A stretch of 64,000 nt of DNA from Styela clava. Lineage: Eukaryota > Chordata > Ascidiacea > Stolidobranchia > Styelidae. The stretch spans positions 15,748,001-15,812,000 of the forward strand of contig NC_135261.1 in NCBI RefSeq assembly GCF_964204865.1. The letters run 5' to 3'. Positions 24,985 to 63,850 of the stretch are shown one piece after another. The notes under the pieces were generated by a model. The model was given only the letters and a program-made list of their open reading frames with translations. It was not told the origin of the DNA and searched no databases. Both the position numbers and the translations under genes were made by a program. The stretch's first letter is position 1. The number at the start of each line of letters is the position of its first letter.

Positions 24985-26593
24985 ATGCTGACCTTGAAAA
25001 ACATATTGTGTATTTCACTTTTGATGCTTGGTATAAGCATTGAGATTAATCTGGCAAAAGAATGTAAAATTCCAGAGAACAATGAGGACATTGACTGGGA
25101 TAAGGTATGTATATAATTAAATTGTAAAACCTTTACTTCCATTCGGTTTTTAATATATATATAAAAGATGTGTCGTTTTCCGCTTACACTTTTCTCCAAA
25201 AGTTTGATTAAGACAGCATTAGGACTTCAGATACATTATCTCACAATAATACATCTGGAGATTTCAACCTCTTCACTTCACTCAACTTTTCAAATGTGTC
25301 ACAGGTGTTAACAGTTGAGATTTAGTAAAACTCTCCTTGCATAATGAAATTATTCAGTAGAAATTACAAACCATATTGTTGTGTGCAGGTTAAGAATGAC
25401 TGGTATCTGGTGCTACACACCAACGATGAGGTCATGAATGAAGATGTTATAGGTGCAAAACTACAGAACTTCTCCAATACAAATGAAGGAATGCAAATGG
25501 TGGTTACTAATTTACATGAGAAGTAAGTTTATAATTTATTTCAAATAAAGTTGAAAAAAAAACTGAAAAAATGACTAAAACACTGCAATATTCAAACTAA
25601 AGTATATAAGCGAATTCTGTTACATTTGAATGGACAGATCAAACTACTCAGTCTCCAAATCAGAGATACATTCAAAAACAGAAGATATGTAATTTTAAAA
25701 ACATTGTATGTAAAAAAAAAACATTTTACTTTATTTCAGTTCTCCTCCCCAAACGTTTACAATTGATCGGACCAAACGAATTGACGGCGTTTATTATGGG
25801 ATGAAGAGCGAAAGTATTATTTTTGGATATGACTATATAGTTAAAATGAAATATAATAAATAAGAAATTCAATATTTTGATACAGAACCAGCTGTTTTGG
25901 CTTCACACACTCTAACACAAGACGGAGGAACAAATAATAATGCTAAAAAAATAGGTAATGTATAATTGAATTTACAGATTAAAATGGTTACGGTGAATAC
26001 ATTTAAAAATAGTTAAAACATTTTAATATTCAGATGATGCCTTGTTCAATGGTGATATTCTGGTTCTATACGACAAAAAGAATTATTTAGTCCATGCATT
26101 CTGCAGTCTTTCAGGTATTTTAGGCCACTTCTCATTTAGTTTCAATGACAATTTATTCTCAGCAGCATTGATAGAACACACAATAAAAGGAATTAGACTC
26201 ACTCAAGAGTAAATAATATATTCAGTGAGTAATGAAAATTGATCACTTAAAACCAGTCAAGGATGTTCATTCACAAGGAATGTCTACTCACTAGTGAAGG
26301 TAGTTACACATTGCATGTAAGGTGGGGAATAGGAGAAAAGCAACATAAGACAACAAATTTTTCAAAAAAGTGACATCAACCAATTGCATATCTGTAGATT
26401 TCTGGAGCGATTTATATCGAATCTCAATATCTTTTCAGGTGAATGGGTTGTCTGGTCGGCATTTCCAACCCTAAATCCAACTATTCATCAAATTAGTTCA
26501 ATGTGGAACAAGCTCATTGAGAAAGGAATCATTGTACAACTTTATCCTTCTAAAATTGTTGAACATCCGGAGTTGATGGAAAGTTTGAACTGA
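24985..26593 (+). CDS. Secreted lipocalin-like protein, copy 1
   Basis: Six exons: 24985-25104, 25389-25522, 25740-25813, 25886-25954, 26034-26114, 26439-26593; 210 residues. Residues 1-24 are a signal peptide (hydrophobic LCISLLMLGISI). NDWYLVLH (43-50) fits the strand-A W-Y motif, LYDKKNY (144-150) the TDYxxY motif, and WVVWSAFPTL then ISSMWNKLIEKGI the last strand and helix. The only mature cysteines, C27 and C156, sit where ApoD-type lipocalins form their N-terminal-to-strand disulfide. One N-glycosylation sequon (NFS, 67-69). The exon 3 donor (A|GTATTA) is supported by alignment with the clearer donor in copy 5. AATAAA at 26693 follows the stop by about 100 bases. Family assignment rests on motifs and architecture. 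Ligand unknown; probably carries a small hydrophobic molecule outside the cell. Confidence 0.8.
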
Positions 26594-27543
26594 CGAGATT
26601 TTTCAATATTGAGTTATAACCCTGAACAGAAATTCATTTAATGGGAATTATAACACTGCAGTATACTATTTAGTACAACTACTATATTCTAGAATAAATA
26701 AGAAAACTACAGGAGTCATTTTTTATGCAATTTTAGGCGTTATGCCGTGGCTTTCTCAGTTTCATTGTTATCGTAAATCGTAATTATGTTGTGCTATATT
26801 TAAGTTGCAAATTATACAATGAAGACATGATGCAAATGTTTTAACACTCTAAATGCAATTCTAAACTAGAGGAATTCATCTTTATCTTCCACAATTTGAT
26901 GAGATAAGATAAAAAGATTAATTCATGATTAATAAATTTGATCGAAAACTACCGTACACTCTAAATGAAAAAAGTGGGAATTCCCACCGAAATATTTGGT
27001 TCACAAGGTTTTCTACTTCTTCCACCCTTTGGGTAGGTGTTTAACATTTCCACCCTAACAACCCCACCCAAATCGATAAGAAGATCAACCTTCTTGCAAG
27101 CCTGGAAACGTACTATAACCACCCAAAGGAAGCATGAAACCACGACAGGTTTTCAAGATTTAAACAATTTATTAAAACAGTAAATATTCGGCCAAATTAG
27201 GTCGCAAATAAATACAGTCGTAATGAGAAAGTCAAGTTACGCCTTTTTTGTTTTTTGAATGGAAATTCTTCATTTGGCAGAACAATGAGCATATATACAA
27301 TGAGTGGAAACTTGCAAAGATTTGCTCATTGTGGCATTGTTCCCTGCATTTTTTACGTCGTCCAGCTAAATGGTTCGCTGCATATTAAGAAAACGCATTG
27401 CTCGCTGCCAAAATCCCTTGCTTCAGCCGAGTCGGGTGCGAAATTGGCCGTATTAACTTGACTTGAGGTCTTTAATTCTTCAATACATATTTGATTTTGG
27501 GTTTCGAAGTATGGTACGCTGAAAGCATACAACTATGAGCATA

Positions 27544-28580
27544 TGCTTATTGGGAATGCATATCTATTAGACAGAAAACGTATCTACAGAACAGAATATG
27601 AACCAGTCGCCGAGAGGAGTGCGGTTATTTATGTATTTATTAATTGATATAACATGGGATTTACATATTTATCCAAGGGGAGAAGAAGGCCTAAATATAT
27701 GGCAAACCACGGCCTTTCTCAATCATAGCTCTGTGCTCCATATGAATCACATGGCTCTGCGAGCTATTCGTTTACTTATTAAAAATACTGATTTTAACTA
27801 TAAATTACTCTGGGATATCTTGCCATTGAAAACAAAAGCCAGAAATTGGAAAAAAAGCAGGGAATGAAATGTGTGTATTATGTAATGGAGAACCTGAGTT
27901 TGTTTCACATATTTTCATGTATTGTAAATTTACAAAAAATATTTATGAAGATTTTGTTTTAGATATATTGAAATTGATTAGAATACATTTTGTTATCAAT
28001 ATGATTCTTGCATATTATTTAATTTTAACGATCCTTTATGTAGTCATATAGATACTGTTGATTTGGATGCAATTATACTTTTGTAATCAATAGTGAGATA
28101 TAAAATTTTGACCATGAGAAATTCTATTATATTCGAAAATAAAACACCACATTTTGCCTTTCTCAAAAAGCAGATAAAAATGGCCATAATATGTAGAAAA
28201 ATATAGAGAATTATAGAATATACAACCCATTTGAGAGGGAATTGAAAAATTTATGAAAAATTTAGTTAAAAAGAAAATTATATGTTTATGATATGTATTT
28301 TAAATTAACTAATTTTATTTTTATTGTTTTATATCAATGCATTTATTAAAATAACCTAATTATGGTATGAATTACTACTGGAATTGAACAAAATAAATAC
28401 TGGATCATGGAGGCAAACTGGAATATGAACTTATTTATATTATATATATTATTTTATATTTACCGTAATTAAAATCACTCATTGAGTGAACGAATTAGCA
28501 TACTGTAATGCTTATTGGGAATACATACCATCTATTAGGCAGAAAACTTATCTACAGAACAGAATATGAACCAGCCAAGT
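27544..28580 (+). repeat. LINE-tail segment bounded by 75-bp direct repeats (unit 1)
   Basis: TGCTTATTGGGAATGCATA through ACAGAACAGAATATGAACCAG (27544-27604) recurs with few changes at about 28510-28574. The pair brackets the LINE fragment. It recurs in units 2 and 3. Confidence 0.6.
27598..28051 (+). pseudogene. Non-LTR retrotransposon (LINE) ORF2 C-terminal fragment, unit 1
   Basis: The first frame ends FNYKLLWDILPLKTKARNWK, then KSRE and a stop (27865-27867). The next frame begins at 27869 with CVLCNGEPEFVSHIFMYCKF. C-x2-C-x8-H-x4-C after a WxILPLKTRxxxWKK-like stretch is the zinc-knuckle (zf-RVT-like) tail of LINE reverse transcriptases. A frameshift separates the halves and no polymerase domain is present, so this is a dead 5'-truncated piece. 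Confidence 0.75.
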
Positions 28581-29894
28581 GGGGACCTGGGATATTGTAT
28601 TCATTGATATAGATAGAGATAGTTTATTTTGAAAATTCCACAATCTGACAATACAAACAAATAAAAAATGGAGAGTTCTGGAGAGCGAGCAAAACCTTTA
28701 AAAATGTTCAAAACACGATGAGTATCATGTGCCTGCTGTGTTATAGCAAGTAGTAATGTGTAATGATTGTAATGTGTAATGATTTTTTTTTTTTCAGGGT
28801 TTATAATCGTATGTTTATATCTTGATATATTTGCACAGAGATAATAGGAATTGGTGGATTTTTGATGTTTCTTACCGTGGTGTTTACATGGAGGTATTTT
28901 ATCGTGTATTGTGAATGTCTATGTAAAACAACATTTCCAATTAAGTAATATGAGCAGATATCATAAAATTACTCGATATATAATGCATTTGATAAAAATA
29001 CTCATTTAAAATTTGCAAGTCATTAACATGAAAATAAATTATCACAAGAGAGCAATGCTCAAACATATCCACACAAAGTACAAAACGCCGTAGCACGTGT
29101 AGAGGCAATCTGCCGCAGTGGACTGCCGCCACGATGTCATAAAAAGTATTCCCGTAATTAAAAATCGAACAGCGCATTTTGAAACCCTCCCCAGCCGGTC
29201 GTTCTGGTGCCATTTTACTTTGATTATTTGTTTGTCAACCATTAGGCCCTAAAGCTTCACTCGTGGCTTTATATTAGCGTGTGATAGAGCTCTATTAGGC
29301 AATATATGTAAAACGCACTCATCTAAAAAAAAACATTTTTACGCCAAAATTCCGAAATTTCTATTGAACTTGCGAGATTTTGTGTCTAGTAGAGGGTTAA
29401 TAATTATTCCTAATTAATTAATGTTTATTTCAACGTTTTCTTGAGTTATTTTCCAACAGAACAACACCAGAATCACTATTATAGCAAGAATGGTTACTCT
29501 AAAATCCACGATTGTATTTACAGAATTTTCAAGTTCAAGGCTTCAATTGGCAATTTTGATGACGTCACACCTCTAATTATTAGTCCACACGCCCCCCTCA
29601 ATGCAAAAAATGTTAATTTTTTCAACGAAAATGCGCGTAGAAAGATGTAAACATTCTAATGCGCGCCGCTACGCGTGAAAATTACCATTAATTTTACGTT
29701 TTTTTCAGGTTTAAAAAATCTCGATACCTCTGCCAAGTATGGTGCAGTCGAAATCATATTTATCAAAACATCACAGTGCCAGGGATGATATGTATGACTG
29801 AAAATACATGCTAAACCAATAATAAGTGATCATTGATTTCCTGTCCGAGTCGCGTCAACAATTTCACACATGTGACTAGCGATTTGGAATTAAG

Positions 29895-30072
29895 TTGAAA
29901 ATTATACAATGAAGACATGATACAAATGTTTCAACGCTCTTGTTTGGAATTTTGAACTAGAGGAATTCATCCTTATCCTTCAAAATTTGATGATAAGATA
30001 AAAAAAAATCAGTTCATTGTTAATAAATTTAAATAAAAATAAAGTGGTTTGGTGTTTTGGGGGGTGGATATC
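29895..30072 (+). repeat. Relic of lipocalin 3' flank upstream of copy 2
   Basis: Same as 22868-23045, shifted by 7,027. Confidence 0.75.
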
Positions 30073-30086
30073 ACAGTACATTAGAG

Positions 30087-31459
30087 CAGTGGTCGGCAAC
30101 TTTTTTTCAAGTGACGGACCGGTAAAGTCTGACCAAAAGCCTATGCAATAAGTTATACGCATCAGGAAATTTATGTTGATTGTTGACAATATACTAAAAA
30201 CGACGGTGATGCTATTTAATCCGATATCTGTATTTGTTTGATGACTATCAACTGTATCCATATTCGAGATATGGTCGACATTGACACACGAAACGGGTGG
30301 TTTCTTACACTTCGATATTTCGTTTTTGTAGTAATCAATATTGAAAACCAGGCCTCACATTAGTAAGATTTCGAGAAAGTTAACAATGCCTGTATCATTT
30401 TGTTGGGGAGATCTTATTCGGACTGATGAGAGACATTCTTATATGGGCGTAGAGAAAACAATTTACCCAGCAATATTGCGACATACTGACATGGCATTTG
30501 TTTATAAAGTCAGACATACTGCTCAATAGTGTTGTGCAGTGATCAGCAAACTTCATGTACTTGCGGACCAAATATATACATTACCGGTAGCGCGCGGGCC
30601 GCAATATTACATTAATTAAACTTCAAATTCTGACGCATTCGCATTACTGCCCTTGCTCTGTTGAAAGCCTGTCCCAATGAGATGTGTATGTGTCGTTTTT
30701 TTCAATATATTATCCAACAATACATTGTTTTTATTTACTTAATATCAATGTAAAAGATGATGTTTTTATAACAACTTGTCGTCCAAATGATGATCTGACA
30801 AGCGAGTACGATATTTAATCTAAGTGGAATGCATTTCAGATAAAGCTGCTCAAGGCCATATGTTCTTCCGAACGTGCAAATTACACGTTTTGCACTGTCG
30901 CACAGATTACCTAGTCCCGGGTTTTCGACGACTCGTTTCGTAACGAGTTTAACATTGAAACCCTTAACAACTGCGATGCTGACTGGGCATATAGAGCAAA
31001 CCGGTTTTTGAATGCGCAAGAAAGAAAAATATTTAACCGTTCAAGCACTTTGAAATGCTCGAGCCTCATTTTCAAATTTTAAAAATTAAAATTAACTCGA
31101 ACGACATACAACTGACGCTACTTGTAACATACCAAGCGCCGTACAGCAGCACTTGTCACCACATAAATCCGTGTAGAGACCATAATAAATTTGGGATCAA
31201 TTTTTGTTTTATGTATTAAATGTCGGGTCGTTCGAGGGCCGCAACAAATTAGTACGCGGGTCGCATTTGGCCCGCAGTTTGCCGACCCCTGGTGTTTGTC
31301 TGGTTTATTGTTGGGTGCTGTTTTTAGTCGTAGGGTTTATGGTTACATTGTAGAGGTTATATTACGGCCTTGTTCGTTTTTGTGTCACCTCTCTGCGGAC
31401 CGGCAGTGACCTTTCCGCGGACCGGCGATGGGCCGCGGCCCGGTGGTTGCCGACCACTG
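30087..31459 (+). mobile_element. Non-autonomous hAT element, 1,373 bp, TSD CATTAGAG (unit 2)
   Basis: Same ends, TSD and length as 23060-24432, so it was duplicated with the unit rather than inserted separately. The nested element is at 30537-31291. Confidence 0.93.
30765..31019 (-). pseudogene. hAT transposase C-terminal relic (unit 2)
   Basis: Copy of 23738-23992 with the same frameshift and stop. One base change converts F to I in the VSFAVV run (now VSIAVV). Confidence 0.72.
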
Positions 31460-31954
31460 CATTAGAGTGTATATGTCCATTACAGCCTATATTTGTTACT
31501 GTATAGGTGTGTGTAAATAGCACTCCAATGATGAAACATCAAAAATTAGGATATGATAGAATTTACATATTTGTACAGAAAAAAAGATTGGATGGAGAAC
31601 ATGTTCTTGAAAATGTGAATCTATTGATCCCTTTTTGCCTCCTCTTCCATGAAACGATGCATGTTCTACATTCCCAGACAGTATAAACAAAAAAAATTAC
31701 GCATTTCCCACAGCCTTGTTTAGAATATATAACATCATCAAGCGCACAAATATATGTACAGAATGCAAAGCCTGTAACGAACAGTCTGTACTATGACTTG
31801 GATAGGTGAGGATGTCAATTGCGCTCTTCCGATTGAAATATTATTGCTTCAGTATCTATAGACTTTTCGCTGCAACTATCATTATATAATTCTGAAATGT
31901 CACAGATTTCTGTAAGTTTGGATAACTCACTAAACTCTAGAAAGTTTCCCGGGT

Positions 31955-31962
31955 TATAAAAG
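31955..31962 (+). promoter_or_regulatory. TATA box of lipocalin copy 2
   Basis: TATAAAAG, 49 bases before the ATG, as in copy 1. Confidence 0.6.
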
Positions 31963-32011
31963 ACTTAATTTTGTGTTTTTTCAAACTTAAGATTTGCTAC
32001 TTTAAAATAAA

Positions 32012-33620
32012 ATGCTGACCTTGAAAAACATATTGTGTATTTCACTTTTGATGCTTGGTATAAGCATTGAGATTAATCTGGCAAAAGAATGTAAAATTCC
32101 AGAGAACAATGAGGACATTGACTGGGATAAGGTATGTATATAATTAAATTGTAAAACCTTTACTTCCATTCGGTTTTTAATATATATATAAAAGATGTGT
32201 CGTTTTCCGCTTACACTTTTCTCCAAAAGTTTGATTAAGACAGCATTAGGACTTCAGATACATTATCTCACAATAATACATCTGGAGATTTCAACCTCTT
32301 CACTTCACTCAACTTTTCAAATGTGTCACAGGTGTTAACAGTTGAGATTTAGTAAAACTCTCCTTGCATAATGAAATTATTCAGTAGAAATTACAAACCA
32401 TATTGTTGTGTGCAGGTTAAGAATGACTGGTATCTGGTGCTACACACCAACGATGAGGTCATGAATGAAGATGTTATAGGTGCAAAACTACAGAACTTCT
32501 CCAATACAAATGAAGGAATGCAAATGGTGGTTACTAATTTACATGAGAAGTAAGTTTATAATTTATTTCAAATAAAGTTGAAAAAAAAACTGAAAAAATG
32601 ACTAAAACACTGCAATATTCAAACTAAAGTATATAAGCGAATTCTGTTACATTTGAATGGACAGATCAAACTACTCAGTCTCCAAATCAGAGATACATTC
32701 AAAAACAGAAGATATGTAATTTTAAAAACATTGTATGTAAAAAAAAAACATTTTACTTTATTTCAGTTCTCCTCCCCAAACGTTTACAATTGATCGGACC
32801 AAACGAATTGACGGCGTTTATTATGGGATGAAGAGCGAAAGTATTATTTTTGGATATGACTATATAGTTAAAATGAAATATAATAAATAAGAAATTCAAT
32901 ATTTTGATACAGAACCAGCTGTTTTGGCTTCACACACTCTAACACAAGACGGAGGAACAAATAATAATGCTAAAAAAATAGGTAATGTATAATTGAATTT
33001 ACAGATTAAAATGGTTACGGTGAATACATTTAAAAATAGTTAAAACATTTTAATATTCAGATGATGCCTTGTTCAATGGTGATATTCTGGTTCTATACGA
33101 CAAAAAGAATTATTTAGTCCATGCATTCTGCAGTCTTTCAGGTATTTTAGGCCACTTCTCATTTAGTTTCAATGACAATTTATTCTCAGCAGCATTGATA
33201 GAACACACAATAAAAGGAATTAGACTCACTCAAGAGTAAATAATATATTCAGTGAGTAATGAAAATTGATCACTTAAAACCAGCCAAGGATGTTCATTCA
33301 CAAGGAATGTCTACTCACTAGTGAAGGTAGTTACACATTGCATGTAAGGTGGGGAATAGGAGAAAAGCAACATAAGACAACAAATTTTTCAAAAAAGTGA
33401 CATCAACCAATTGCATATCTGTAGATTTCTGGAGCGATTTATATCGAATCTCAATATCTTTTCAGGTGAATGGGTTGTCTGGTCGGCATTTCCAACCCTA
33501 AATCCAACTATTCATCAAATTAGTTCAATGTGGAACAAGCTCATTGAGAAAGGAATCATTGTACAACTTTATCCTTCTAAAATTGTTGAACATCCGGAGT
33601 TGATGGAAAGTTTGAACTGA
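32012..33620 (+). CDS. Secreted lipocalin-like protein, copy 2
   Basis: Exons 32012-32131, 32416-32549, 32767-32840, 32913-32981, 33061-33141, 33466-33620. I see no coding difference from copy 1, so the 210-residue protein is the same, including signal peptide, DWY motif, C27/C156 and the NFS sequon. Its introns and TATA region are also essentially unchanged. This is the second gene of the 7,027-bp tandem pair. Being identical, the two should add gene dosage rather than new function, unless one is an assembly duplicate. Confidence 0.8.
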
Positions 33621-34624
33621 CGAGATTTTTCAATATTGAGTTATAACCCTGAACAGAAATTCATTTAATGGGAATTATAACACTGCAGTATACTATTTAG
33701 TACAACTACTATATTCTAGAATAAATAAGAAAACTACAGGAGTCATTTTTTATGCAATTTTAGGCGTTATGCCGTGGCTTTCTCAGTTTCATTGTTATCG
33801 TAAATCGTAATTATGTTGTGCTATATTTAAGTTGCAAATTATACAATGAAGACATGATGCAAATGTTTTAACACTCTAAATGCAATTCTAAACTAGAGGA
33901 ATTCATCTTTATCTTCCACAATTTGATGAGATAAGATAAAAAGATTAATTCATGATTAATAAATTTGATCGAAAACTACCGTACACTCTAAATGAAAAAA
34001 GTGGGAATTCCCACCGAAATATTTGGTTCACAAGGTTTTCTACTTCTTCCACCCTTTGGGTAGGTGTTTAACATTTCCACCCTAACAACCCCACCCAAAT
34101 CGATAAGAAGATCAACCTTCTTGCAAGCCTGGAAACGTACTATAACCACCCAAAGGAAGCATGAAACCACGACAGGTTTTCAAGATTTAAACAATTTATT
34201 AAAACAGTAAATATTCGGCCAAATTAGGTCGCAAATAAATACAGTCGTAATGAGAAAGTCAAGTTACGCCTTTTTTGTTTTTTGAATGGAAATTCTTCAT
34301 TTGGCAGAACAATGAGCATATATACAATGAGTGGAAACTTGCAAAGATTTGCTCATTGTGGCATTGTTCCCTGCATTTTTTACGTCGTCCAGCTAAATGG
34401 TTCGCTGCATATTAAGAAAACGCATTGCTCGCTGCCAAAATCCCTTGCTTCAGCCGAGTCGGGTGCGAAATTGGCCGTATTAACTTGACTTGAGGTCTTT
34501 AATTCTTCAATACATATTTGATTTTAGGTTTCGAAGTATGGTACGCTGAAAGCATACAACTATGAGCATATGCTTATTGGGAATGCATATCTATTAGACA
34601 GAAAACGTATCTACAGAACAGAAT

Positions 34625-35078
34625 ATGAACCAGTCGCCGAGAGGAGTGCGGTTATTTATGTATTTATTAATTGATATAACATGGGATTTACATATTTATC
34701 CAAGGGGAGAAGAAGGCCTAAATATATGGCAAACCACGGCCTTTCTCAATCATAGCTCTGTGCTCCATATGAATCACATGGCTCTGCGAGCTATTCGTTT
34801 ACTTATTAAAAATACTGATTTTAACTATAAATTACTCTGGGATATCTTGCCATTGAAAACAAAAGCCAGAAATTGGAAAAAAAGCAGGGAATGAAATGTG
34901 TGTATTATGTAATGGAGAACCTGAGTTTGTTTCACATATTTTCATGTATTGTAAATTTACAAAAAATATTTATGAAGATTTTGTTTTAGATATATTGAAA
35001 TTGATTAGAATACATTTTGTTATCAATATGATTCTTGCATATTATTTAATTTTAACGATCCTTTATATAGTCATATAG
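34625..35078 (+). pseudogene. LINE ORF2 C-terminal fragment, unit 2
   Basis: Same two-frame structure as unit 1 (KSRE stop, then CVLCNGEPEFVSHIFMYC), with one V-to-I change near the end. Confidence 0.75.
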
Positions 35079-35837
35079 ATACTGTTGATTTGGATGCAAT
35101 TATACTTTTGTAATCAATAGTGAGATATAAAATTTTGACCATGAGAAATTCTATTATATTCGAAAATAAAACACCACATTTTGCCTTTCTCAAAAAGCAG
35201 ATAAAAATGGCCATAATATGTAGAAAAATATAGAGAATTATAGAATATACAACCCATTTGAGAGGGAATTGAAAAATTTATGAAAAATTTAGTTAAAAAG
35301 AAAATTATATGTTTATGATATGTATTTTAAATTAACTAATTTTATTTTTATTGTTTTATATCAATGCATTTATTAAAATAACCTAATTATGGTATGAATT
35401 ACTACTGGAATTGAACAAAATAAATACTGGATCATGGAGGCAAACTGGAATATGAACTTATTTATATTATATATATTATTTTATATTTACCGTAATTAAA
35501 ATCACTCATTGAGTGAACGAATTAGCATACTGTAATGCTTATTGGGAATACATACCATCTATTAGGCAGAAAACTTATCTACAGAACAGAATATGAACCA
35601 GCCAAGTGGGGACCTGGGATATTGTATTCATTGATATAGATAGAGATAGTTTATTTTGAAAAGTCCACAATCTGACAATACAAACAAATAAAAAATGGAG
35701 AGTTCTGGAGAGCGAGCAAAACCTTTAAAAATGTTCAAAACACGATGAGTATCATGTGCCTGCTGTGTTATAGCAAGTAGTAATGTGTAATGAATTTAAT
35801 TCACTGTGGTAAATGAATTGCTATCTTTTTATTTGTT

Positions 35838-37705: not shown

Positions 37706-37729
37706 TCTCACTATTGATTACAAAAGTAT

Positions 37730-39385: not shown

Positions 39386-39427
39386 GGATGAGAACAGAAG
39401 GGACCTAAGTCACATTTTTGGAAAATT

Positions 39428-43846: not shown

Positions 43847-45433
43847 ATGCTGACCTTGAAAAACATATTGTGTATTTCACTTTTGATGCTTGTTATAAGC
43901 ATCGAGATTAACCTGGCAAAAGAATGTAAAATTCCAGAGAACAATGAGGACATTGACTGGGATAAGGTATGTATATAATTTAATTGTAAAACCTTTACTT
44001 CCAGTCAGTTTTTGATATATATTTTTAAAAGATTTGTCGTTTTCCGCATACACTTTTCTCCAAAAGTTTGATTAAGACAACATTAGGACTTAAGATACAT
44101 TATCTCACAATAATACATCTGGAGATTTCAACCTCTTCCCTTCACTCAACTTTCCAAATGTGTCACAGGTGTTAACAATTGAGATTTAGTAAAACTCTTC
44201 TTGCATAATGAAATTATTCAGTAGAAATTACAAACCATATTGTTGTGTGCAGGTTAAAAATGACTGGTATCTGGTGCTACACACCAACGATGAGGTCATG
44301 AATGAAGATGTTATAGGTACAAAATTACAGAACTTCTCCAATACAAATGAAGGAATGCAAATGGTGGTTACTAATTTACATGAGAAGTAAGTTTATACTT
44401 TATTTCAAATAAAGTTAAAAAAAAAACTGAAAAAATGACTAAAACACTGCAATATTCAAACTAAAGTATATAAGCGAATTCTGTTACATTTGAATTGACA
44501 GATCAAACTACTCAGTCTCCAAATCAGAGATACATTCGAAAACAGAAGATATGTAATTGTACATTTTACTTTATTTCAGTTCTCCTCCCCAAACCTTTAC
44601 AATCGATCGGACCAAACGAATAGACGGCGTTTATTATGGGATAAAGAGCGAAAGTATTATTTTTGGATATAACTATATAGTTAAAATGAAATATAATAAA
44701 TAAGAAATTCAATATTTTGATACAGAACCAGCTGTTTTGGCTTCACACACTCTAACACAAGACGGAGGAACAAATAATAATGCTAAAAAAATAGGTAATG
44801 TATAATTGAATTTACAGATTAAAATGGTTATGGTGAATACATTAACAATAGTTAAAACATTTTAATATTCAGATGATGCCTTGTTCAATGGTGATAATCT
44901 GATTCTATACGACAAAAAGAATTATTTAGTCCATGCATTCTGCAGTCTTTCAGGTATTTTATGCCACTTTTCATTTAGTTTCAATGACAATTTATTCTCA
45001 GCAGCATTGATAGAACACACAATAAAAGGAATTAGACTCACTCAAGAGTAAATAATATATTCAGTGAGTAATGAAAATTGATCACTTAAAACCAGTCAAG
45101 GATGTTCATTCACAAGGAATGTCTACTCACTAGTGGAGGTAGTTACACATTGCATGTAAGGTGGGGAATAGGGGAAAAGCAACATAAGACAACAAAATTT
45201 TTTAAAAAAGGGACATCAACCAATTGCATATCTGTAGATTTCTGGAGCGATTTATATCAAATCTCAATATCTTTTCAGGTGAATGGGTTGTCTGGTCGGC
45301 ATTTCCAACCCTAAATCCAACTATTCATCAAATTAGTTCAATGTGGAACAAGCTCATTGAGAAAGGAATCATTGTACAACTTTATCCTTCTAAAATTGTT
45401 GAACATCCGGAGTTGATGGAAAGTTTGAACTGA
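43847..45433 (+). CDS. Secreted lipocalin-like protein, copy 3
   Basis: Exons 43847-43966, 44253-44386, 44580-44653, 44726-44794, 44873-44953, 45279-45433, with the same lengths and phases as copy 1; 210 residues. Against copy 1 it has five replacements (G16V, A63T, M106I, I141N, V143I) and about seven silent changes; exons 4 and 6 are unchanged. Silent sites thus change more per site than replacement sites, consistent with purifying selection. Signal peptide, W45-Y46, C27/C156 and the NFS sequon are kept. The promoter carries TATGAAAG. Intron 2 is shorter than in copies 1/2. Confidence 0.8.
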
Positions 45434-50634: not shown

Positions 50635-50867
50635 TTTGATGAGAGTCTACTGGAAACAACATAAAATTTGAAAGGGAAGAATTGTTCTGTGATCAATTAT
50701 CTGTCCTAAAGTGTAAACAACATAAAATTTGCAAGGGAACAACTGTTCTGTGATCAATTACCGTATATGGCCTACAGTGTACAGGTAAGATGCTGGCTGA
50801 CTGCTAACTCAGTACCGCACCTACGTTAGGTACCGGTACCGCCGTGAATTCAGCTCTCATCTCTTTG

Positions 50868-51981: not shown

Positions 51982-52005
51982 TCTCACTATTGATTACAAA
52001 AGTAT

Positions 52006-53036: not shown

Positions 53037-53689
53037 TAAAAATGTTTCCAACTGAATTGGAGTCCTTGTACTGGACAAGTACTTTATGATAGTAATTTAT
53101 AAAAGTGGTGAACAACACAGACTAGCTATTTTTTCAGTTTGTCTTCTTACCAAGGTCATATTGAAATAGACGAATTATTGAATAGAAATGGGCTATACAT
53201 AAGTATTGGTTCTAACTCTTCATGATTTTAAAGCATAGAGTGATATCATCATACATCTACATATAGGCTATATAGAATCAAAAATTTCAACAATATGTTT
53301 GTAATGGTGACATTATTTCATTCATTCTCAACAGAGTCAACACTGTATTTTACACCCAAATACAACGCCCTAGATTTAAAAACATGTACCAACCTATCAG
53401 TTGTTCACTGCTCATCTGCTATATTTCTTCCATTTAGTTCCTCTGCTATTAGCTACTTGTGAGTTCCAATACTGTGATCATCTTCATTTTCAAGAAAATC
53501 AACATCCTGAATAGAAAGTTATTTTCAACAATATGTTTGTAATGGTGACATTATTTTATTCATTTCGCACTGTATTTTACACCCAAATACAACGCACTAG
53601 ATTTAAAAACATGTACCATTATTATTACCATTATTATTGCATATCGCCGGATGAGAACAGAAGGGACCGAAGTCACATTTTTGGAAAAT

Positions 53690-53965
53690 TCATCTTTTTT
53701 CAATATTTTGGGGTTTTGAGCCATGCTCTACAAGGTGGATGGTCTTGAAATCCTGAATTTCTAAATAATAAAAGTTTCAGATGGACTTAGGACTATAATA
53801 TTTTGTAGAAGTTAAGAACAGAATGGGCCTAAGTCCAGCTTAAATTTTTGTTATTGAGAAATTCAGGATTTCAAGACCACCACCTTGTAGAATGTATTGT
53901 AGAGCATGGCTCAGAAGTCAGAACCCCAATGCTCAAAATCCCAAAATATTGAAAAAAGAGTCCTA
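53690..53965. repeat. Imperfect hairpin element, copy of 39428-39700
   Basis: Arms at about 53690-53763 and 53857-53960 carry the same inverted blocks as the B1 copy. Confidence 0.7.
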
Positions 53966-54730
53966 AGTTCCAGTATGATGAGCATGAACATCAGAAATGA
54001 AATGTCCGAAACTTACATCCCTAAAAAATTATTCAGTGCAACTTGGGCCTAAGTCACCTTGCATCCCATACAAAAAATTCAGAAGTTGTTGAGAACAGAA
54101 TGGGCCAAAATCCTTTATGGGGGTAAAAAAGCTGGAAGGAATTGAAGCTAAAGTGCCAAAAAATACCGATTACAAATATATTCTCCTCCACACTAAAATA
54201 ACCAGAGCTCAGGTATATAATAAGTGTGAATATTTAGGAATTTAGAAAGCTCTATGACGCGATGGTGATGCAGTGATGTAATTTCCGGATGACGTAGTCA
54301 TGTGGGGGTTAGAAATTAGATATGCAAAAATTGTCGAGACCGGCCAACTATAAGTATCTGCGGCGCGTACTGCAGGAGACCCATCTTATCTAGGCCTAGT
54401 ACTGGTCACTTAACGTTAGCAAACAAAGCTTGACAAGATCTGAAGTTTGGCAAATCCAAAGTATCTAGTTGAGATAGAATACCGTAGCTCACGTTACTTG
54501 TACGAAGTTCAGAATTTACGACTCACGATATAAGTTACTGATAACGTTAAATTTCTGTATTTACCGCTATAGGCTATAGCCTAGTCTTATCTAGTACTGG
54601 TCACTTGACATTAGCAAACAAAGCTTTGGTTTGCTTGACTGGCAACGTTGGCTGAACGCAATCTGAATCCACATGAACACTGTAATAGTAGTAGTGGATT
54701 GACTGATCGATTGTTTAATTATGGCTAGAT

Positions 54731-55927
54731 CAGTGATTTCCCTACACCCCCCCTATAGGGGGTGAACACCCCCCCCCCTAAAATTTCAAACACCCCCCCT
54801 AATTTTGAGGTGAGATTCCACACTGTAATTCCTAACTCTAGTATAATTGTATTCAAATATAACGCCTATGGCATATTCATCAGTGTAGATGAGTGGTTCC
54901 AAACCGAAGTCTGCGGGCCAATTACGGCTCGCGTGACGATTTAAAATGGCCCGCCGAACTTGAGTGAAATAGTTTAACCCTTCATGTGGTACATTTTGAG
55001 TTTTAGATACCGTCTATTGTTACATCATTATCACAGTTTAAGTACGTTTATTTCGTAACAATTGAATTATATCGGCATCTTATGTATACGTATGGGTATT
55101 AGGATTACACACTGCAGTATTTTAGATATCAGCCGTATATTAGGAAAGCTTAATAATGTCACAAAACGAAAACTAGGTACCGAAAACAGACGTTTTTTAG
55201 ATGAATGATAGCGTTTTTATTTTTTTATTGAAAAGAATCAAATTTCAGCGATTTGTCTTCTTACCAACAAAATATTTCAGTTCTGAAGGAATACAACATT
55301 ATGCGACATTATGATCAGTTGACGCGCGTATTTCAAAATTTAATTCATTGCATAATTCATACAAAGTTCAAACAAACATGTTAAAAAAATGTGAAATGTG
55401 TAACAAAACAAGCCATAAGTAGCCATTCATACAATGCCAGATGAGCTAGTAACTTCATTAGTCACTATCAGTTGCAAATTACTTGTTGAAACCTAGTAGT
55501 ATATAGTTACGGTGGAAAGCCTTGCTTTATTATCTATTTCCCGGGAGTTCTATCAGCTAAATATTATAATTATTGATTTCATTACATAACAAACTGCGAT
55601 GCTAGGTGTATCTAAAATCGAGCTTAGAGCCTATTTTGGTGCCTATTTCTCAAAATTTTCTCAGGGCGCTTAGGCGCGCCCTGAACCCCAGCCGTGCCGT
55701 CCCGCACTTTTCCTCGCTGCCCTTTTCTGGCCCTACAATTTTATTCTGCTGTGGATTTTGGCTCGCCGTCAATCAACTTGGGGGGCCCCTCTTGTACATC
55801 GTTTCTTAAATACATACCATTTTTTTAAGAATACAAATAGCCTAGTTTTATCTCAAATAGAAAATTATTTACCACCCCCTAAATTTCGAAACACCCCCCC
55901 TAAATGGAAAAGCTTGGGAACATACTG
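54731..55927 (+). mobile_element. hAT element, 1,197 bp, TSD GGCTAGAT
   Basis: Ends CAGTGATTTCCC and GGGAACATACTG, flanked by the exact direct octamer GGCTAGAT (54723-54730 and 55928-55935). The other copy of this spacer reads GGCTAGATTAAGG without interruption at about 40462, the empty site. Runs of C (ACACCCCCCCTA) lie just inside both ends. A GTGGTTCCAAACC...GCGGGCC stretch near 54890 looks like part of another hAT end. No transposase was recognised. Confidence 0.92.
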
Positions 55928-56257
55928 GGCTAGATTAAGGTGCCGGTACCGTACCGGTACTATAATTTCGCGTTGCACAGAGATAATGGGAATTGGTGGA
56001 TTTTTGATGGTAAACATGTTGTTGCGTGTGATTCCAATGCGCTCAAAAATAACTTTATAAAATTTACCTGTATGGAGGTATTGCGTGAAGTGTACTGTAC
56101 GGAGTTTTTGATAATTTTGTAATTTTTTTTCAAGTTTGCGAAGTTCTTTTTGCAAGCTGTGTATTTGAATTTTACATTATTGCTTGTGCGCAACCGTAGT
56201 TTTTCTGTAATTCCAATGCGCTTAAAAATACGTTTACAAAATTCACCTAGCGATATT

Positions 56258-57028
56258 TGTTACTCTGTTATAGGGTCGCAAAATAGCCTGTGATTAAAGT
56301 GTGTATGTTAAAAACACTAATTTTTATTTTTGTGATATAGATCATAACAAAATTAACCAATTTTGTTTGATACAATAAGTAGATAGAATTATTTGTTTGT
56401 TATGTTTCATGGTGTTTATACATTGAATGATTCATTAGCAGTGTTCCCTCTAAGGTGTGCGCGTGTGCTCGCGCACACAACTTTCAGAGGCTGCGCACAC
56501 GCATAGATTTACTGTGCATAGACGTATTTCGATGTAATGTAACAATGTTCTCGGTTGGCAGGTTGAGAAAGTTTGTTGTTGCCCACCCATTACCCGGTTA
56601 GAACGCCAAAATTTCTTCATTGGTTTTTGCACAAATATTAGTCATTTCCAAATAAGTGCGCACACACCAAAATTTCTGCGCACACATACTACAAAAAATT
56701 AGGGGGAACATTGTTCATTAGCATTCGATGAAAAATCTGGGTTGGACTTATTTACTTGGTATGTGTTTCATTGCATCGGTACATTATTGTGAAAATTTAC
56801 TAATCATTAAACATTGGGGTTAAGAGTATTCCACACAACGTGATTGGCGCTAACTACAGATAAACGAAATCAGTTACGTTGTGTTGGTTTACAGCGGAAA
56901 TTGAAAAAAAAGTGTAGTAGAAGAGTAGAATAAGTTATTATAACAACGATCAACTTGAAATTTTTGCAGTGACATTAATTTATGTTTTAAAATGTCCTGA
57001 TGAAATTTTATAATATTTCTCTTTTACT
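56258..57028 (+). other. Unit-specific 770-bp segment containing a hAT MITE
   Basis: Lies between CTAGCGATATTTG and GGTGGGGTGA, which are adjacent at about 40837 in the other copy. No terminal repeats were found at its own ends, so it may be an insertion here or a deletion there. Confidence 0.75.
56439..56713 (+). mobile_element. hAT MITE, 275 bp, TSD TTCATTAG
   Basis: Ends CAGTGTTCCCTCTAA and TTAGGGGGAACATTG are inverted repeats, with exact 8-bp direct repeats TTCATTAG outside (56431-56438 and 56714-56721). Inside both ends are GCGCACAC-rich motifs in opposite orientation. Too short to code for anything. Confidence 0.92.
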
Positions 57029-57643
57029 GCGGTGGGGTGATTTTTTTTTTGCCCGAAAACGTTCATTCAACAGGAGAATTTCGTTACATTGTACCCCGAA
57101 AAAGATGGATGCTCATCATGGTTTTAGTATTATGTTGAAGACATTTAATTTTAATTTAATGTGAATGTAAAAATCTTAAATTCATATTTTTACCCCGTAA
57201 AGCAAAACTTGGTTCCTCATACAGCGTTCCCTCTATTTTGGTTTAATATTTGTTCACTTAAAATATAGGTTTCCGCAAGAATTATTATCATTCGTAATAT
57301 TCTTTGATTATAATTTAAAAATTAATATTATATCTTACTTGAATCGGAGTTTAAAATGAGAAAATTAATATTTGAATGATGAGACAATCGTAAAGGTAAA
57401 AATGTTATGCAGTAAAACGCTTTTTCGGACACGAAATAGACCTATGTATCGTTTTGTTATTATGTTGTTGTTGTTTGTTCCTCTTGGTGTTTGTATTTCT
57501 TCTTCTTGTAGAGAAACAAATCGATTTTCTCGTTAACTACTGTGTCAATTACTTTGTAATTTCCGTGATTAAAGATTGTTTTTGTTTCTATAAAGCTATG
57601 ACTTTTATTTATTCCTTAATTATTTGCGAGATCTGATATTTCA

Positions 57644-58534
57644 TTTAAAATGCGCTGTTCGATTTTTAATTACGGGAATACTTTTTATGACATCGTGGCG
57701 GCAGTCCACTGCGGCAGATTGCCTCTACACGTGCTACGGCGTTTTGTACTTTGTGTAGATATATTTGAGCATTGCTCTCTTGTGGTAATTTATTTTCATG
57801 TTAATGACTTGCAAATTCTAAATGAGTATTTTTATCAAATGCATTATATATCAAGTAATTTTATGATATCTACTTATATTATTTAATTGGAAATGTTGTT
57901 TTACATAGACATTCCTGATGTATGTTATATTAGGAAACCTGGAAAATTGGGGGAATGTGAATTTCTGTATTGTAATGTGAATTATGATTATTTAGGAATT
58001 AATAATTTTTGTTTATGATGCTTTAAAAAACCATTGTAGGATTTTAAATTCTCTACTTGGAAAATATAAAATAATAAATGTGTTCGATAGTGTTTAGTTG
58101 AATTTCAGTACAACTATTTAAATTACACAGCTGAGCGCTCACTGCCAGAGTGAAATAATTGTAACGGTAACTGAATGACTGAGGTAATAATCATAATTCA
58201 CATTACAATACAGAAATCCACATTCCCCCAATTTTTCAGGTTCCCTAATATAACATACATCAGGAATGTCTATGTAAAACAACATTTCCAATTAAATAAT
58301 ATAAGCAGATATCATAAAATTACTTGATATATAATGCATTTGATAAAAATACTCATTTAAAATTAAGTCATTAACATGAAAATAAATTACCACAAGAGAG
58401 CAATGCTCAAATATATCCACACAAAGTACAAAACGCCGTAGCACGTGTAGAGGCAATCTGCCGCAGTGGACTGCCGCCGCGATGTCGTAAAAAGTATTCC
58501 CGTAATTAAAAATCGAACAGCGCATTTTAAAACC
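57644..58534. repeat. Large palindrome before copy 4
   Basis: Arms 57644-58008 and 58185-58534, the counterpart of 41447-42337 at +16,197, with very few differences. Confidence 0.88.
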
Positions 58535-59983
58535 CTCCCCAGCCGGTCGTTCTGGTGCCATTTTACTTTGGTTATTTTTTTGTCAGCCATTAGGCCCTAA
58601 AGCTTCACTCGTGGCTTTTTATTAGCGTGTGATAGAGCTCTATTCAGCAATATATGTAAAACGAATTCATCTAAAAAAAATAATTTTTACGTCAAAATTC
58701 CAAAATTTCTATTGAACTTGCGAGATTTTGTGTCTAGTAGAGGGTTAATAATTATACCTCATTAATTAATTTTTATTTCAATGTTTTCTTGTGTTATTTT
58801 CCATCAGAACAACACCAAAATCACTATTATAGCAAAAATGGTTATTCTAAAATCCACGATTGTATTTACAGAATTTTTAAGTTCAAGGCTTCAATTGGCA
58901 ATTTTGATGACGTCACACCTCTAATTATTAGTCCACACGCCCCCCTCAATGCAAAAAATGTTAATTATTTCGACGGAAATGCGCGTAGAAAGACGTAAAC
59001 ATTCTAATGCGCGCCGCTACGCGTGAAAATTACCATTAATTTTACGTTTTTTTCAGGTTTAAAAAATCTCGATACCTCTGCCAAGTGTGGTGCAGTCAAA
59101 ATCATATTTATCAAAACATCACAGTGCCAGGGATGATATGTATGACTGGAAATACATGCTAAACCAATAATAAGTCATTATTAAGGATTGATAATCATTG
59201 ATTTCCTGTCCGAGTCGCGTCAACAATTTCACACATGTGACTGGCGATTTTGAATTAAGTTGAAAATTATACAATGAAGACATGATACAAATGTTTCAAC
59301 GCTCTTGTTTGGAATTTTGAACTAGAGGAATTCATCCTTATCCTTCAAAATTTGACGATAAGATAAAAAAAAATCAGTTCATTGTTAATAAATTTAAATA
59401 AATATAAAGTGGTTTGGTGTTTTGGGGGTGGATATCACAGTACATTAGAGTGTACTGTATATATATATATCCATTACATCCTATATTTGTTACTGTATAG
59501 GTGTGTGTAAATAGCACTCCAATGATAAAACATCAAAAATTAGGATATGATAGAATTTACATATTTGTACAGAAAAAAAAGATTGGATGGAGAACATGTT
59601 CTTGAAAATGTGAATCTATTGATCCCTTTCTGCCTCCTCTTCCATGAAACGATGTATGTTCTACATTCCCAGACAGTATAAACAAAATTTCCCACAGCCA
59701 TTCCCAGACAGTATAAACAAAAACATTACGCATTTCCCACAGCCTTGTTTAGAATATATAGCATCATCAAGCGCACAAATATATGTACAGAATGCAATGC
59801 TTGTAACGAACAGTCTGTACTATGACTTGGATAGGTGAGGATGTCAATTGCGCTCTTCCGATTGAAATATTATTGCTGCAATATCTATAGAATTTTCGCT
59901 GCAACTATCATTATATAATTCTGAAATGTCACAGATTTCTGTAAGTTTGGATAACTCACTAAACTCTAGAAAGTTTCCCGGGT

Positions 59984-59991
59984 TATGAAAG
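59984..59991 (+). promoter_or_regulatory. Variant TATA element of lipocalin copy 4
   Basis: TATGAAAG, as in copy 3. Confidence 0.45.
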
Positions 59992-60040
59992 ACTTAATTT
60001 TGTGTTTTTTCAAACTTAAGATTTGCTGCTTTAAAATAAA

Positions 60041-61625
60041 ATGCTGACCTTGAAAAACATATTGTGTATTTCACTTTTGATGCTTGTTATAAGCATCGAG
60101 ATTAACCTGGCAAAAGAATGTAAAATTTCAGAGAACAATGAGGACATTGACTGGGATAAGGTATGTATATAATTTAATTGTAAAACCTTTACTTCCAGTC
60201 AGTTTTTGATATATATTTTTAAAAGATTTGTCGTTTCCGCTTACACTTTTCTCCAAAAGTTTGATTAAGACAACATTAGGACTTAAGATACATTATCTCA
60301 CAATAATACATCTGGAGATTTCAACCTCTTCACTTCACTCAACTTTCCAAATGTGTCACAGGTGGTAACAATTGAGATTTAGTAAAACTCTTCTTGCATA
60401 ATGAAATTATTCAGTAGAAATTACAAACCATATTGTTGTGTGCAGGTTAAAAATGACTGGTATCTGGTGCTACACACCAACGATGAGGTCATGAATGAAG
60501 ATGTTATAGGTACAAAATTACAGAACTTCTCCAATACAAATGAAGGAATGCAAATGGTGGTTACTAATTTACATGAAAAGTAAGTTTATACTTTATTTCA
60601 AATAAAGTTAAAAAAAAACTGAAAAAATGACTAAAACACTGCAATATTCAAACTAAAGTATATAAGCGAATTCTGTTACATTTGAATTGACAGATCAAAC
60701 TACTCAGTCTCCAAATCAGAGATACATTCGAAAACAGAAGATATGTAATTGTACATTTTACTTTATTTCAGTTCTCCTCCCCAAACCTTTACAATTGATC
60801 GGACCAAACGAATAGACGGCGTTTATTATGGGATAAAGAGCGAAAGTATTATTTTTGGATATAACTATATAGTTAAAATGAAATATAATAAATAAGAAAT
60901 TCAATATTTTGATACAGAACCAGCTGTTTTGGCTTCACACACTCTAACACAAGACGGAGGAACAAATAATAATGCTAAAAAAATAGGTAATGTATAATTG
61001 AATTTACAGATTAAAATGGTTATGGTGAATACATTAACAATAGTTGAAACATTTTAATATTCAGATGATGCCTTGTTCAATGGTGATAATCTGATTCTAT
61101 ACGACAAAAAGAATTATTTAGTCCATGCATTCTGCAGTCTTTCAGGTATTTTATGCCACTTTTCATTTAGTTTCAATGACAATTTATTCTCAGCAGCATT
61201 GATAGAACACACAATAAACGGAATTAGACTCACTCAAGAGTAAATAATATATTCAGTGAGTAATGAAAATTGATCACTTAAAACCAGTCAAGGATGTTCA
61301 TTCACAAGTAATGTCTACTCACTAGTGGAGGTAGTTACACATTGCATGTAAAGTGGGGAATAGGGGAAAAGCAACATAAGACAACAAAATTTTTTAAAAA
61401 AGGGACATCAACCAATTGTATATATGTAGATTTCTGGAGCGATTTATATCAAATCTCAATATCTTTTCAGGTGAATGGGTTGTCTGGTCGGCATTTCCAA
61501 CCCTAAATCCAACTATTCATCAAATTAGTTCAATGTGGAACAAGCTCATTGAGAAAGGAATCATTGTACAACTTTATCCTTCTAAAATTGTTGAACATCC
61601 GGAGTTGATGGAAAGTTTGAACTGA
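60041..61625 (+). CDS. Secreted lipocalin-like protein, copy 4
   Basis: Exons 60041-60160, 60446-60579, 60772-60845, 60918-60986, 61065-61145, 61471-61625; 210 residues. It shares V16, T63, I106, N141 and I143 with copy 3 and adds P30S close to the mature N-terminus. Exon 6 is the same in all four intact copies. Key lipocalin features (W45-Y46, LYDKKNY, C27/C156, C-terminal helix) are kept, and all introns have GT-AG borders. Downstream the AATAAA near 61694 is closer to the stop because of the 3' flank deletion. It is the last intact member before the broken copy 5. Confidence 0.8.
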
Positions 61626-61947
61626 CGAGATTTTTCAATATTGAGTTATAACCCTGAACAGTATACTATTTAGTACAACTACTATATTCTAGAATAAATA
61701 AGAAAACTACAGGAGTCATTTTTTATGCAATTTTAGGCGTTATGCCGTGTCTTTCTCAGTTTCATTGTTGTCGTAATTATGTTGTGCTATATTTAAGTTG
61801 CAAATTATACAATGAAGACATGATGCAAATGTTTTAACACTCTAAATGCAATTCTGAACTAGAGGAATTCATCTTTATCTTCCACAATTTGATGAGATAA
61901 GATAAAAAGATTAATTCATGATTAATAAATTTGATCGAAAACTACCG

Positions 61948-62509
61948 TTTGGTATCTTGGGGTGGATATCACAGCATATTAGAGTGTACGCCTATAAATA
62001 CATTGAAGCTTATATTTGTAATTGTATCAGTGTGTGTAAATAGCACTACAACGATACAACATCAAACGTTGGGATATGATAGAATTTCCATATTTGGACA
62101 GAAATAGGATTGGATGAAGCACCTAAACGAATAAACATGTTCTTGAAAATGTGAATCTATTGATCCCATTCTGCCTTTCTTCTTTCAGGAGACAATGTAT
62201 GTTCTTCATTGCCAGACAGTATGAACAAAAAAAATTACGTATTTCACAGAGCTTGTTTAGAAAATATAGCATCATTAAGCGACTTGGATAAGTGAGGATA
62301 TCAATCGCGCTCTTCCGATTGAAATATTATTGCTACAGCATCTATAGACTTTTCGTTGCAACTATTCATTACATAATTCTGAAATGTCACAAATTGATGT
62401 AAATTTGGATAACTCGCCAACAAACTCTCAAAAGTTTTCAGGGTTATGAAAAGACTTAATTTTGTAGTTTAAATAAGATAAAACTAAGATTTAGCCATTG
62501 TAAAACAAA
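61948..62509 (+). repeat. Diverged lipocalin upstream region (copy 5)
   Basis: Aligns in order with the 0.5 kb before the other copies: GTGTGTAAATAGCACT, GAACATGTTCTTGAAAATGT-type block, GCGCTCTTCCGATTGAAATATT and GGGTTATGAAAAGACTTAAT. A TATGAAA element is at 62445. It is more diverged than any pairwise comparison among copies 1 to 4. Confidence 0.7.
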
Positions 62510-63850
62510 ATGCAGACCTTAAAAACATGTGTATTTCACTTTTGATGCTTGTTATAAGCATCAAGATTAACCAGGCAAAGAAATGTATAATTCCAGAGAA
62601 CAATGAAGACATCGACTCTACTTTCAATGAATTTCTTGAAATCAAGGATTTTAGATATTAAAAAAACAATTGCCTCTTCTCTTAGTTTTCTTAAATATTT
62701 TATTAAGTAAACTCATACTTATATTTTATTAAGTTTACATTGATAACGAAATATTGAAGAATTTGCATTTATCTTGAAGAGTAGTGAATAATGTAGAAAA
62801 TCAGTAGGAAAATTGTCAAATTCACTGTTTTAGTTAAATGAAATTTTTACAATTTTTTTGGTAAAGCTAAATTTTTGTATAGTTTCCCACAATGATAGAT
62901 GGAAACTGGAATGAACATTGAAAAAGATTTATATATCCTGTTTAATTTTCATAATGACAGTTTGCGAATGATTGGTATCTAGGACTACATACCGATGACG
63001 CATTGTCGACAACAGATGTTATAGGTTCAAAAATCTGAAATATCACAAAAACAAAGATTGGAAGTAAATTTTTAATCACAAGTTTCTATGAAAGGTGAGT
63101 GAATATTAGTTTATTGCATAGTAGAAGTTTGAAAAAGTAATGTTTTCAAGGTCTATGAATGTTTGACCAACCCTTGACCCCAGAAAACTTCTTCCTGTAC
63201 TTTGCTATTGCAAAATTTCTGATGTTTATTTTGTAAGCGCTTTGGAGAGTTGACGCTTATGAACTGGTTGATATGTTCAGAACCAGCATTTTAATAAGCA
63301 AAAATATTCAACCACATTTTTTTAAGGCTCCTATGGTAATAAGGCACCATTTTCTGGGCTAATTTTTAATTATAGCAACTAAAGTGAAGCTCATCGAAAT
63401 ACAATCAAGTTATTTGATTCACAACTAATTTTTGAAACCAGATTGAAAACTGACAAATAACACGCTGAACTGCGAAAAAGAGGCAATGTTCACCATCATG
63501 CTTGAATATCATTTACGGTACATCTCATTTTTCAGTTCTCCCCCCCCCCCCCCCCAAAAAAAAAAACAATGAAGGCTTATTGTATCAAACTAAGATCAGG
63601 TGTTTGTAGAGCGAATAAGAGCCAAGGTATGAATTTTATATAGATGACATTTAGAAAAGTTACTTAACACTTTATCAAATAAAAAGCTTTTTCTCATTCT
63701 AGTATAGAGTCAGAGGCTTTGTCTATAAATGCCCTATTAGCAGATGGAAGTTTGGATAAAGATGCAGTAAAAGTAGGTAAGGCACATTAAATCCAACCTT
63801 TTTTAATAAGATGACGAAGCACTTGCATATCTATCCAAAAAATAAATGCT
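62510..63850 (+). pseudogene. Lipocalin-like copy 5, broken
   Basis: Exon 1-like sequence starts at ATG 62510, but a net 4-base loss shifts the frame; an internal ATG at 62527 restores the signal peptide and CIIPENNEDID. The exon 1 donor is then gone and the frame stops at 62661. Exon 2-like 62961-63094 is exactly 134 bases, as in the intact genes, and reads NDWYLGLHTDD, with an in-frame TGA at the position of Q66. Exon 3-like 63536-63626 is lengthened by a C/A homopolymer; exon 4-like 63708-63776 is the normal 69 bases. An exon 5-like start at 63811 (DDEALAYLSKK) stops early. An older paralogue whose borders help validate the gene model. Confidence 0.75.
63541..63567. repeat. Poly-C/poly-A homopolymer run
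   Basis: A C-run of about 15 followed by an A-run of about 12 inside the exon 3-like region of copy 5. The length may be uncertain because of sequencing error. Confidence 0.8.

Follow-up and report, generated by a model that had tools for sequence, protein, structure and literature searches.

A small-exon gene cluster of Styela clava as a probable divergent branch of the lipocalins, grown by duplication

What is encoded by the set of small exons that recurs along a 64,000-nucleotide stretch of the ascidian Styela clava (contig NC_135261.1, positions 15,748,001 to 15,812,000; C16:15748001-15812000 in the genome that we searched), and how did it come to stand there several times? This whole stretch is called the window in what follows, and an original prediction, made from its letters alone, had read in it five secreted lipocalin-like genes, lipocalins being a family of cup-shaped proteins that carry lipophilic molecules. 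Our analysis makes it very probable that these are secreted ligand-binding lipocalins of the ApoD and bilin-binding type which have lost their second disulfide and have grown in number by duplication. More specifically, the cluster is a divergent branch of the known lipocalin family, one that the standard family model misses.

The copies are named c1 to c5 from left to right, and the four intact ones, obtained by joining exons across splice sites and by comparison with paralogues, are listed here together with the signals that flank c1.

24985..26593, + strand: c1, intact six-exon lipocalin gene
24985-25104, 25389-25522, 25740-25813, 25886-25954, 26034-26114, 26439-26593, + strand: exons of c1
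32012..33620, + strand: c2, intact, protein identical to that of c1
43847..45433, + strand: c3, intact, five amino-acid differences from c1
60041..61625, + strand: c4, intact, one amino-acid difference from c3
24928..24933, + strand: TATA-like box 57 nt before the ATG of c1, consensus match only
26693..26698, + strand: AATAAA about 100 nt past the stop codon of c1, consensus match only

The exons of c1 measure 120, 134, 74, 69, 81 and 155 nt, which sum to 633 nt and give 210 residues, and its five introns are all of the GT-AG type with phases 0, 2, 1, 1 and 1. The same exon lengths and splice sites recur in c2, c3 and c4, as had been claimed, and the 633-nt frame of each is open. This constancy was considered as a sign of selection and rejected, because the exons of the four copies are 94.6-100% identical in pairwise comparison and the likeness in length is then weak evidence. 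At position -57 the consensus match reads TATAAAA in c1 and c2 and TATGAAA in c3 to c5; AATAAA stands at the same place in c2 and c3 as in c1, and closer to the stop codon in c4. Neither tRNA genes nor Rfam families were found across the window, and a stretch at 21291-21353, tried as an additional copy, was rejected as a weak match (tblastn E 0.07).

The predicted cluster of five holds for these four members, but the fifth is broken. Comparison of its DNA with c1 gives the following parts.

62510..63776, + strand: c5, broken copy
62510-62617, + strand: exon-1-like, no donor
62961-63094, + strand: exon 2, contains TGA
about 63536-63630, + strand: exon-3-like stretch, degenerate
63708-63776, + strand: exon 4

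In exon 1 of c5 four nucleotides are deleted near the start, and the likeness to c1 stops at 62617, just before the donor. Exon 2 (134 nt, 83/134 bases identical) and exon 4 (69 nt, 40/69 identical) keep their lengths and splice sites, and the matches resembling exons 5 and 6 fall past the right end of the window.

The exon plan is found far beyond the window. In the genome searched (376.6 Mb, 379 contigs), a search with the DNA of exon 2 gave 14 matches; with the whole protein there were 163 at E<=10, mostly single exons, the weakest of which may partly be due to chance. Gene models were built in eight stretches, the window included. One set comprises 15 complete open models with standard splice sites, namely the four of the window, one inverted copy on C16 about 275 kb to the right of c4, which encodes the same protein, four on C9 and six on C16 near 8.7 Mb. 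Of nine more attempts five gave complete models; the other four lacked a found exon, carried stops or had no standard donor. C9 holds one broken gene besides, and several partial genes were seen among the modelled stretches. The 16 complete models from outside the window follow the plan with small variations, even where protein identity has fallen to 46%: exons 3, 4 and 5 measure 74, 69 and 81 nt in all 16 (20/20 overall), and exon 2 measures 134 nt in 15 of them (19/20 overall) and 131 in one. Exon 1 has 120 nt in 13 of the 16 and 126, 126 and 174 in the others, as set by the choice of ATG, and exon 6 has 134, 155 or 158. Among 11 paralogues aligned to c1, three are 73-81% and eight 46-57% identical in protein. 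The six-exon gene and its 210-residue frame are thus confirmed by GT-AG introns, an open frame and a plan repeated in paralogues, and the exon calls are firmer through these paralogues than from the window alone.

Is the product a lipocalin? The genome also has single-exon relatives of 197-265 residues, which show signatures such as IDFDRIPGKWF, INWDRLNGKWF and TDYENY. In nine of these intronless genes a Pfam search gave PF00061 as the best family in three (E 8.8e-4, 3.1e-3 and 0.038, all under the 23-bit cut-off), and a tenth gave no PF00061 match. When the profile of 12 intron-bearing rows was compared with that of the intronless genes, the two matched over their full length, with a probability of 99.6, E 1e-24 and 195 columns. 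In the PDB the intronless profile (10 rows) found lipocalins in 24/24 matches at E<=1, the best at 4.7e-8, and among 177,635 PDB sequences a joint profile of nine intron-bearing and nine intronless rows found lipocalins in 18/18 at E<=10, among them bilin-binding protein (1.1e-7), crustacyanin (6e-4) and ApoD (0.0018). The intron-bearing genes are therefore joined to the lipocalins by their profile link to the intronless genes, whose PDB matches are lipocalins throughout, and the predicted lipocalin multiplied by recent duplication is in this sense supported by the paralogues and the profile searches. In a tree that omits two protein-identical rows and includes one row from C19 whose exon 3 is non-standard, the intron-bearing and the intronless genes fall on two sides (19 and 16 rows, support 100/99, with a warning of long branches).

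The window protein by itself also carries some of the resemblance. Alignment scores of c1 summed over eight known lipocalins are equalled by 0/2000 shuffles with either of two matrices, and the corresponding z score is 4.62, as against at most 2.42 for 20 Escherichia coli proteins and 14-34 for true lipocalins. Taken singly, bilin-binding protein is the only one that is clearly set apart, its score being equalled by 1/2000 shuffles with one matrix and 0/2000 with the other.

Several results weigh against this identification. The Pfam search with the c1 and c3 proteins gave no family at E<=10, so that the check by PF00061 and PF08212 proposed together with the original prediction came out negative for both, although 8/8 known lipocalins used as controls match one or the other of these models; the intron-bearing paralogue C16a_33973 gave no family at E<=1. 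The score of c1 against insecticyanin is matched by 1260 and 511 of 2000 shuffles with the two matrices, and that against L-PGDS by 1388 and 1331. With small lipocalin profiles of 8, 5 and 3 sequences the window score is equalled by 4, 71 and 73 of 2000 shuffles, of which 1819, 1726 and 1753 scored. The intron-bearing profile alone (12 rows) gave no more than two PDB matches, both lipocalins but without significance (E 0.25 and 0.72), and the PDB strength of the joint profile comes mainly from its intronless rows. The glycine of the GxW signature is Asn in c1 to c4 (NDW, in exon 2), and GxW is present in 1/12 intron-bearing rows, compared with 7/10 intronless ones. Finally, when exon 2 was folded by itself with AlphaFold2 and no alignment was supplied, two helices were predicted (best of five models, pLDDT, the predicted local distance difference test, 71); such helices are uninformative for a fragment of a barrel, yet they give no support. 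A single phmmer match of the protein, FlgD at E 0.12, was dismissed as chance, and no relatives were found in the plasmid and viral collections.

An unrelated secreted family that has come to resemble lipocalins by convergence in two short motifs would account for the missing Pfam match, the weak scores of the small profiles and the lack of significance of the intron-bearing profile in the PDB. It would hardly produce a full-length profile link between the intron-bearing and intronless genes, nor joint and intronless profiles that hit nothing but lipocalins, and we consider it highly improbable. With lipocalin descent as the preferred reading, the group would derive from a lipocalin like ApoD or bilin-binding protein. 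A literature search for intronless lipocalin clusters found none among the matches listed, which is not proof of absence.

For c1 to c4 we would expect a signal peptide, followed by a mature lipocalin of about 186 residues that folds into an eight-stranded barrel and serves as an extracellular binder of a small hydrophobic ligand. The N-terminus is hydrophobic as judged by eye, and constitutes a putative signal peptide. From the alignment to bilin-binding protein, exon 1 would encode the signal peptide together with the N-terminal Cys. Strands A-C would fall in exon 2, approximately strands D and E in exons 3 and 4, strands F-G in exon 5, and strand H with the helix in exon 6. In the joint alignment C27, W45 and D146 are invariant (18/18 rows) and the column of Cys156 holds Cys in 17/18. 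The motif of c1 at strands F and G is DKKNYLVHAFC, where the Thr and the first Tyr of TDY are not retained. Lipocalins of the ApoD and bilin-binding type have two disulfides, one from the N-terminal Cys to strand G and one from strand B to the C-terminus. The mature c1 protein has C27 and C156 as its only cysteines and so departs from this two-disulfide pattern; the two stand at what we take to be the first disulfide of the bilin-binding type, and a bond from C27 to C156 at the end of strand G may close the barrel. Among the intronless rows the strand-B Cys is present in 10/10 and the C-terminal Cys in 9/10, and in the intron-bearing set the C19 row has both and the other 11 rows have neither. 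The two are absent together, as is expected for a lost disulfide, and the glycine of GxW would likewise have been lost in most members. C16a_33973 has SGAW, compatible with the lipocalin signature; against the PS00213 pattern c1 has one mismatch (G to N), and 88/2000 shuffles do equally well or better.

The original prediction also saw in the duplication a signature of selection on dosage or ligand range, which our data only hint at, by a low ratio between recent copies and by a ratio near 1 in exon 3 of older ones. Between c1 and c3, the rate of nonsynonymous substitution per site (dN) is 0.010 and that of synonymous substitution (dS) is 0.056, with dN/dS of 0.18, corresponding to five nonsynonymous differences in 501 sites and seven synonymous in 129 (Fisher p 0.004). 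The recent copies thus appear, from their sequences, to be under purifying selection. It could be argued that the window copies are silent and on their way to loss like the broken c5, considering that several copies in other places are also broken or partial. Against this, all four frames are intact, the 633 coding bases of c1 to c4 have no insertion or deletion though four of the five introns have some, and dN/dS between c1 and c3 is well below 1; we therefore regard such a loss as improbable, and keep to genes maintained by selection.

In the older family two groups of seven and five genes were tested, using the proportions of nonsynonymous (pN) and synonymous (pS) sites that differ. Exon 3 has pN/pS of 1.05 and 0.88 in the two groups, compared with 0.22-0.54 for the other exons, apart from exon 4, which reaches 0.84 in one group. 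In the two groups, 5 and 26 of 5000 random sets of 24 codons, and 9 and 13 of the 185 contiguous windows, attain the pN of exon 3; for its pN/pS the counts are 164 and 190 of the 5000 sets and 11 and 19 of the 185 windows. This is only suggestive of exon 3 as the fastest-evolving part of the older family, with a moderate excess. Since the newest copies encode nearly the same protein, they would mainly raise the dosage, and in the older clusters exon 3 would be where divergence went furthest; a dosage effect thus suits the newest copies and diversification the older ones, neither being proven. If the genes are expressed, near-identical and diverged copies together would form a natural series in which dosage could be separated from ligand diversification.

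The intron-bearing group would have grown by both tandem and segmental duplication. The tandem part is seen most directly in two adjoining units.

21755..28773, + strand: first unit of a direct duplication, holds c1, 99.8% identical over 7,020 bases to the second
28781..35800, + strand: second unit, holds c2, partner of 21755..28773

Such an identity also suits the alternative that the genes are true lipocalin homologues but that the assembly has entered one allelic locus more than once, in which case some near-identical window copies would be duplicates and fewer genes exist than are counted here. In fact, the introns of c3 and c4 differ by 1.4-4.6% from those of c1, with insertions and deletions, and the inverted copy about 275 kb to the right of c4, although 99.0-99.5% identical, is without a stretch of about 350 bases that is present in the window. 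These arguments bear less on c1 and c2 themselves. Altogether such duplicates seem to us unlikely, though well within consideration, and real duplication is the explanation we prefer.

Further observations concern the DNA around the genes. From 62072-64000 of the window on to C16:15823798, the sequence matches in pieces, at about 84-94%, a cluster that lies in inverted orientation some 7 Mb off along this contig, and the lipocalin region is therefore partly a segmental duplication. About 350 bases at approximately 26929-27282 in the c1 unit are missing from an otherwise 99% identical copy at C16:16.08 Mb. A stretch resembling a transposable element at 23060-24438, perhaps hAT-like, ends in inverted CAGTGGTCGGCAAC repeats; it is present in the c1 and c2 units, and has no match in those of c3 and c4. 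The window also contains an inverted pair of a multi-exon 2OG-Fe(II) oxygenase-like gene at 5628-7713 (+ strand) and 14057-15416 (- strand), about 85% identical in DNA, a piece of which gave PF03171 at E 6.8e-6 with a query that carried two extra leading residues.

How large is the family as a whole? A genome search with one intronless gene gave at least 152 matches at E<=0.001, and the matches listed lie on 15 contigs. At C1:7106056-7142499, 12 intronless lipocalin matches form a tight cluster in both orientations, some of them crossing a stop codon. If the tight clusters of C1, C4 and C5 are set aside, the matches listed include 19 opposite-strand pairs about 3-6 kb apart on 10 contigs, of which three places were examined, each over 9.9 kb.

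C17:12763600-12773500: repeat copy L044
C17:14058000-14067900: repeat copy L045
C14:16084300-16094200: repeat copy L046

Compared in pairs, the three show about 95-97% identity along almost the full 9.9 kb, and two of them stay similar, with insertions, across about 18 kb. The repeat carries intronless lipocalin frames, and one of its ends holds interrupted remnants of a reverse transcriptase and perhaps of an integrase: of four open pieces at one end of one copy, one gave RVT_1 at E 1.8e-5 and another an integrase zinc domain at 0.015, both below the cut-off. Three lipocalin frames of the repeat gave no lipocalin match in Pfam, and they are called lipocalins because of their similarity to the intronless genes. 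The lipocalin part of the repeat has long matches to two of 13 intronless loci compared, L024 (C1) and L025 (C4); most of this similarity is at 68-85%, and part of it lies outside the reading frames. In the window the repeat is absent save for a stretch of 169 bases that matches at 74% in two places. We tentatively suggest, at somewhat less than even confidence, that a large dispersed repeat, about 18 kb long or longer, has taken lipocalin genes along as passengers; it may be a mobile element whose cargo is lipocalins, or else a segmental duplication that spreads beside an old retroelement. If the repeat is truly mobile, lipocalins would have been spread by an element, an unusual route for a family of secreted carriers, and the intron-bearing clusters of the window would represent the stationary arm of the superfamily. 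The repeat may matter more than the window cluster, and the size and form of a lipocalin family that is unexpectedly large here are more surprising than that cluster.

On another contig, at C9:16168000-16187800 (L041-L043), a cellulose synthase exon (TIGR03030 at E 3.8e-31, below the full-length cut-off, and PF03552 above its cut-off) is followed just downstream and in the same direction by a GH6 domain (PF01341, E 9.9e-11). A cellulose synthase with an adjacent GH6 domain is a hallmark of tunicates, which to our knowledge are the only animals with a cellulose synthase.

Among known systems, the nearest are bilin-binding protein, insecticyanin and ApoD, which are among the best PDB profile matches. 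In bilin-binding protein and insecticyanin the N-terminal Cys lies 18 residues ahead of the strand-A Trp, with the same spacing as in the window protein, and in all three the strand-G motif ends in Cys, as in DKKNYLVHAFC, which resembles DNKNYIIGYYC. The window group differs from this type in that the strand-B and C-terminal Cys pair is missing (the C19 row excepted), the GxW glycine is lacking in all but one of the 12 rows, and the similarity of single sequences is too low for Pfam.

The gene structure recalls that of rodent lipocalins. Exons 2-5 of probasin measure 140, 68, 111 and 102 bases (PMC11940140), so that exons 2 and 3 total 208 as in the window gene (134+74), and the later phases run alike. 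GxW lies in exon 2 of the bank-vole Obp genes (PMC2824723), just as NDW does here, and for mouse class A and rat Mup genes exon 3 is reported as the most divergent coding exon (PMC3477143), a divergence that the older family here may share. In contrast to MUP, OBP and probasin, exons 4 and 5 of the window gene measure 69 and 81 nt and one extra exon seems to split the barrel, the exact intron positions having been compared with MUP exon limits only. The teleost ApoD clusters (PMC6325677) are likewise a clustered expansion of an ApoD-like lipocalin; they belong to a different lineage, and here an intronless branch is present as well. Within the tunicates, a survey detected one lipocalin in Ciona, LCN_Cint (PMC8420045), which makes one gene there and many here, a notable expansion, though found by different search methods; in the lineage for which a single Ciona lipocalin was reported, Styela clava has a whole subfamily of lipocalins that escapes the standard family model.

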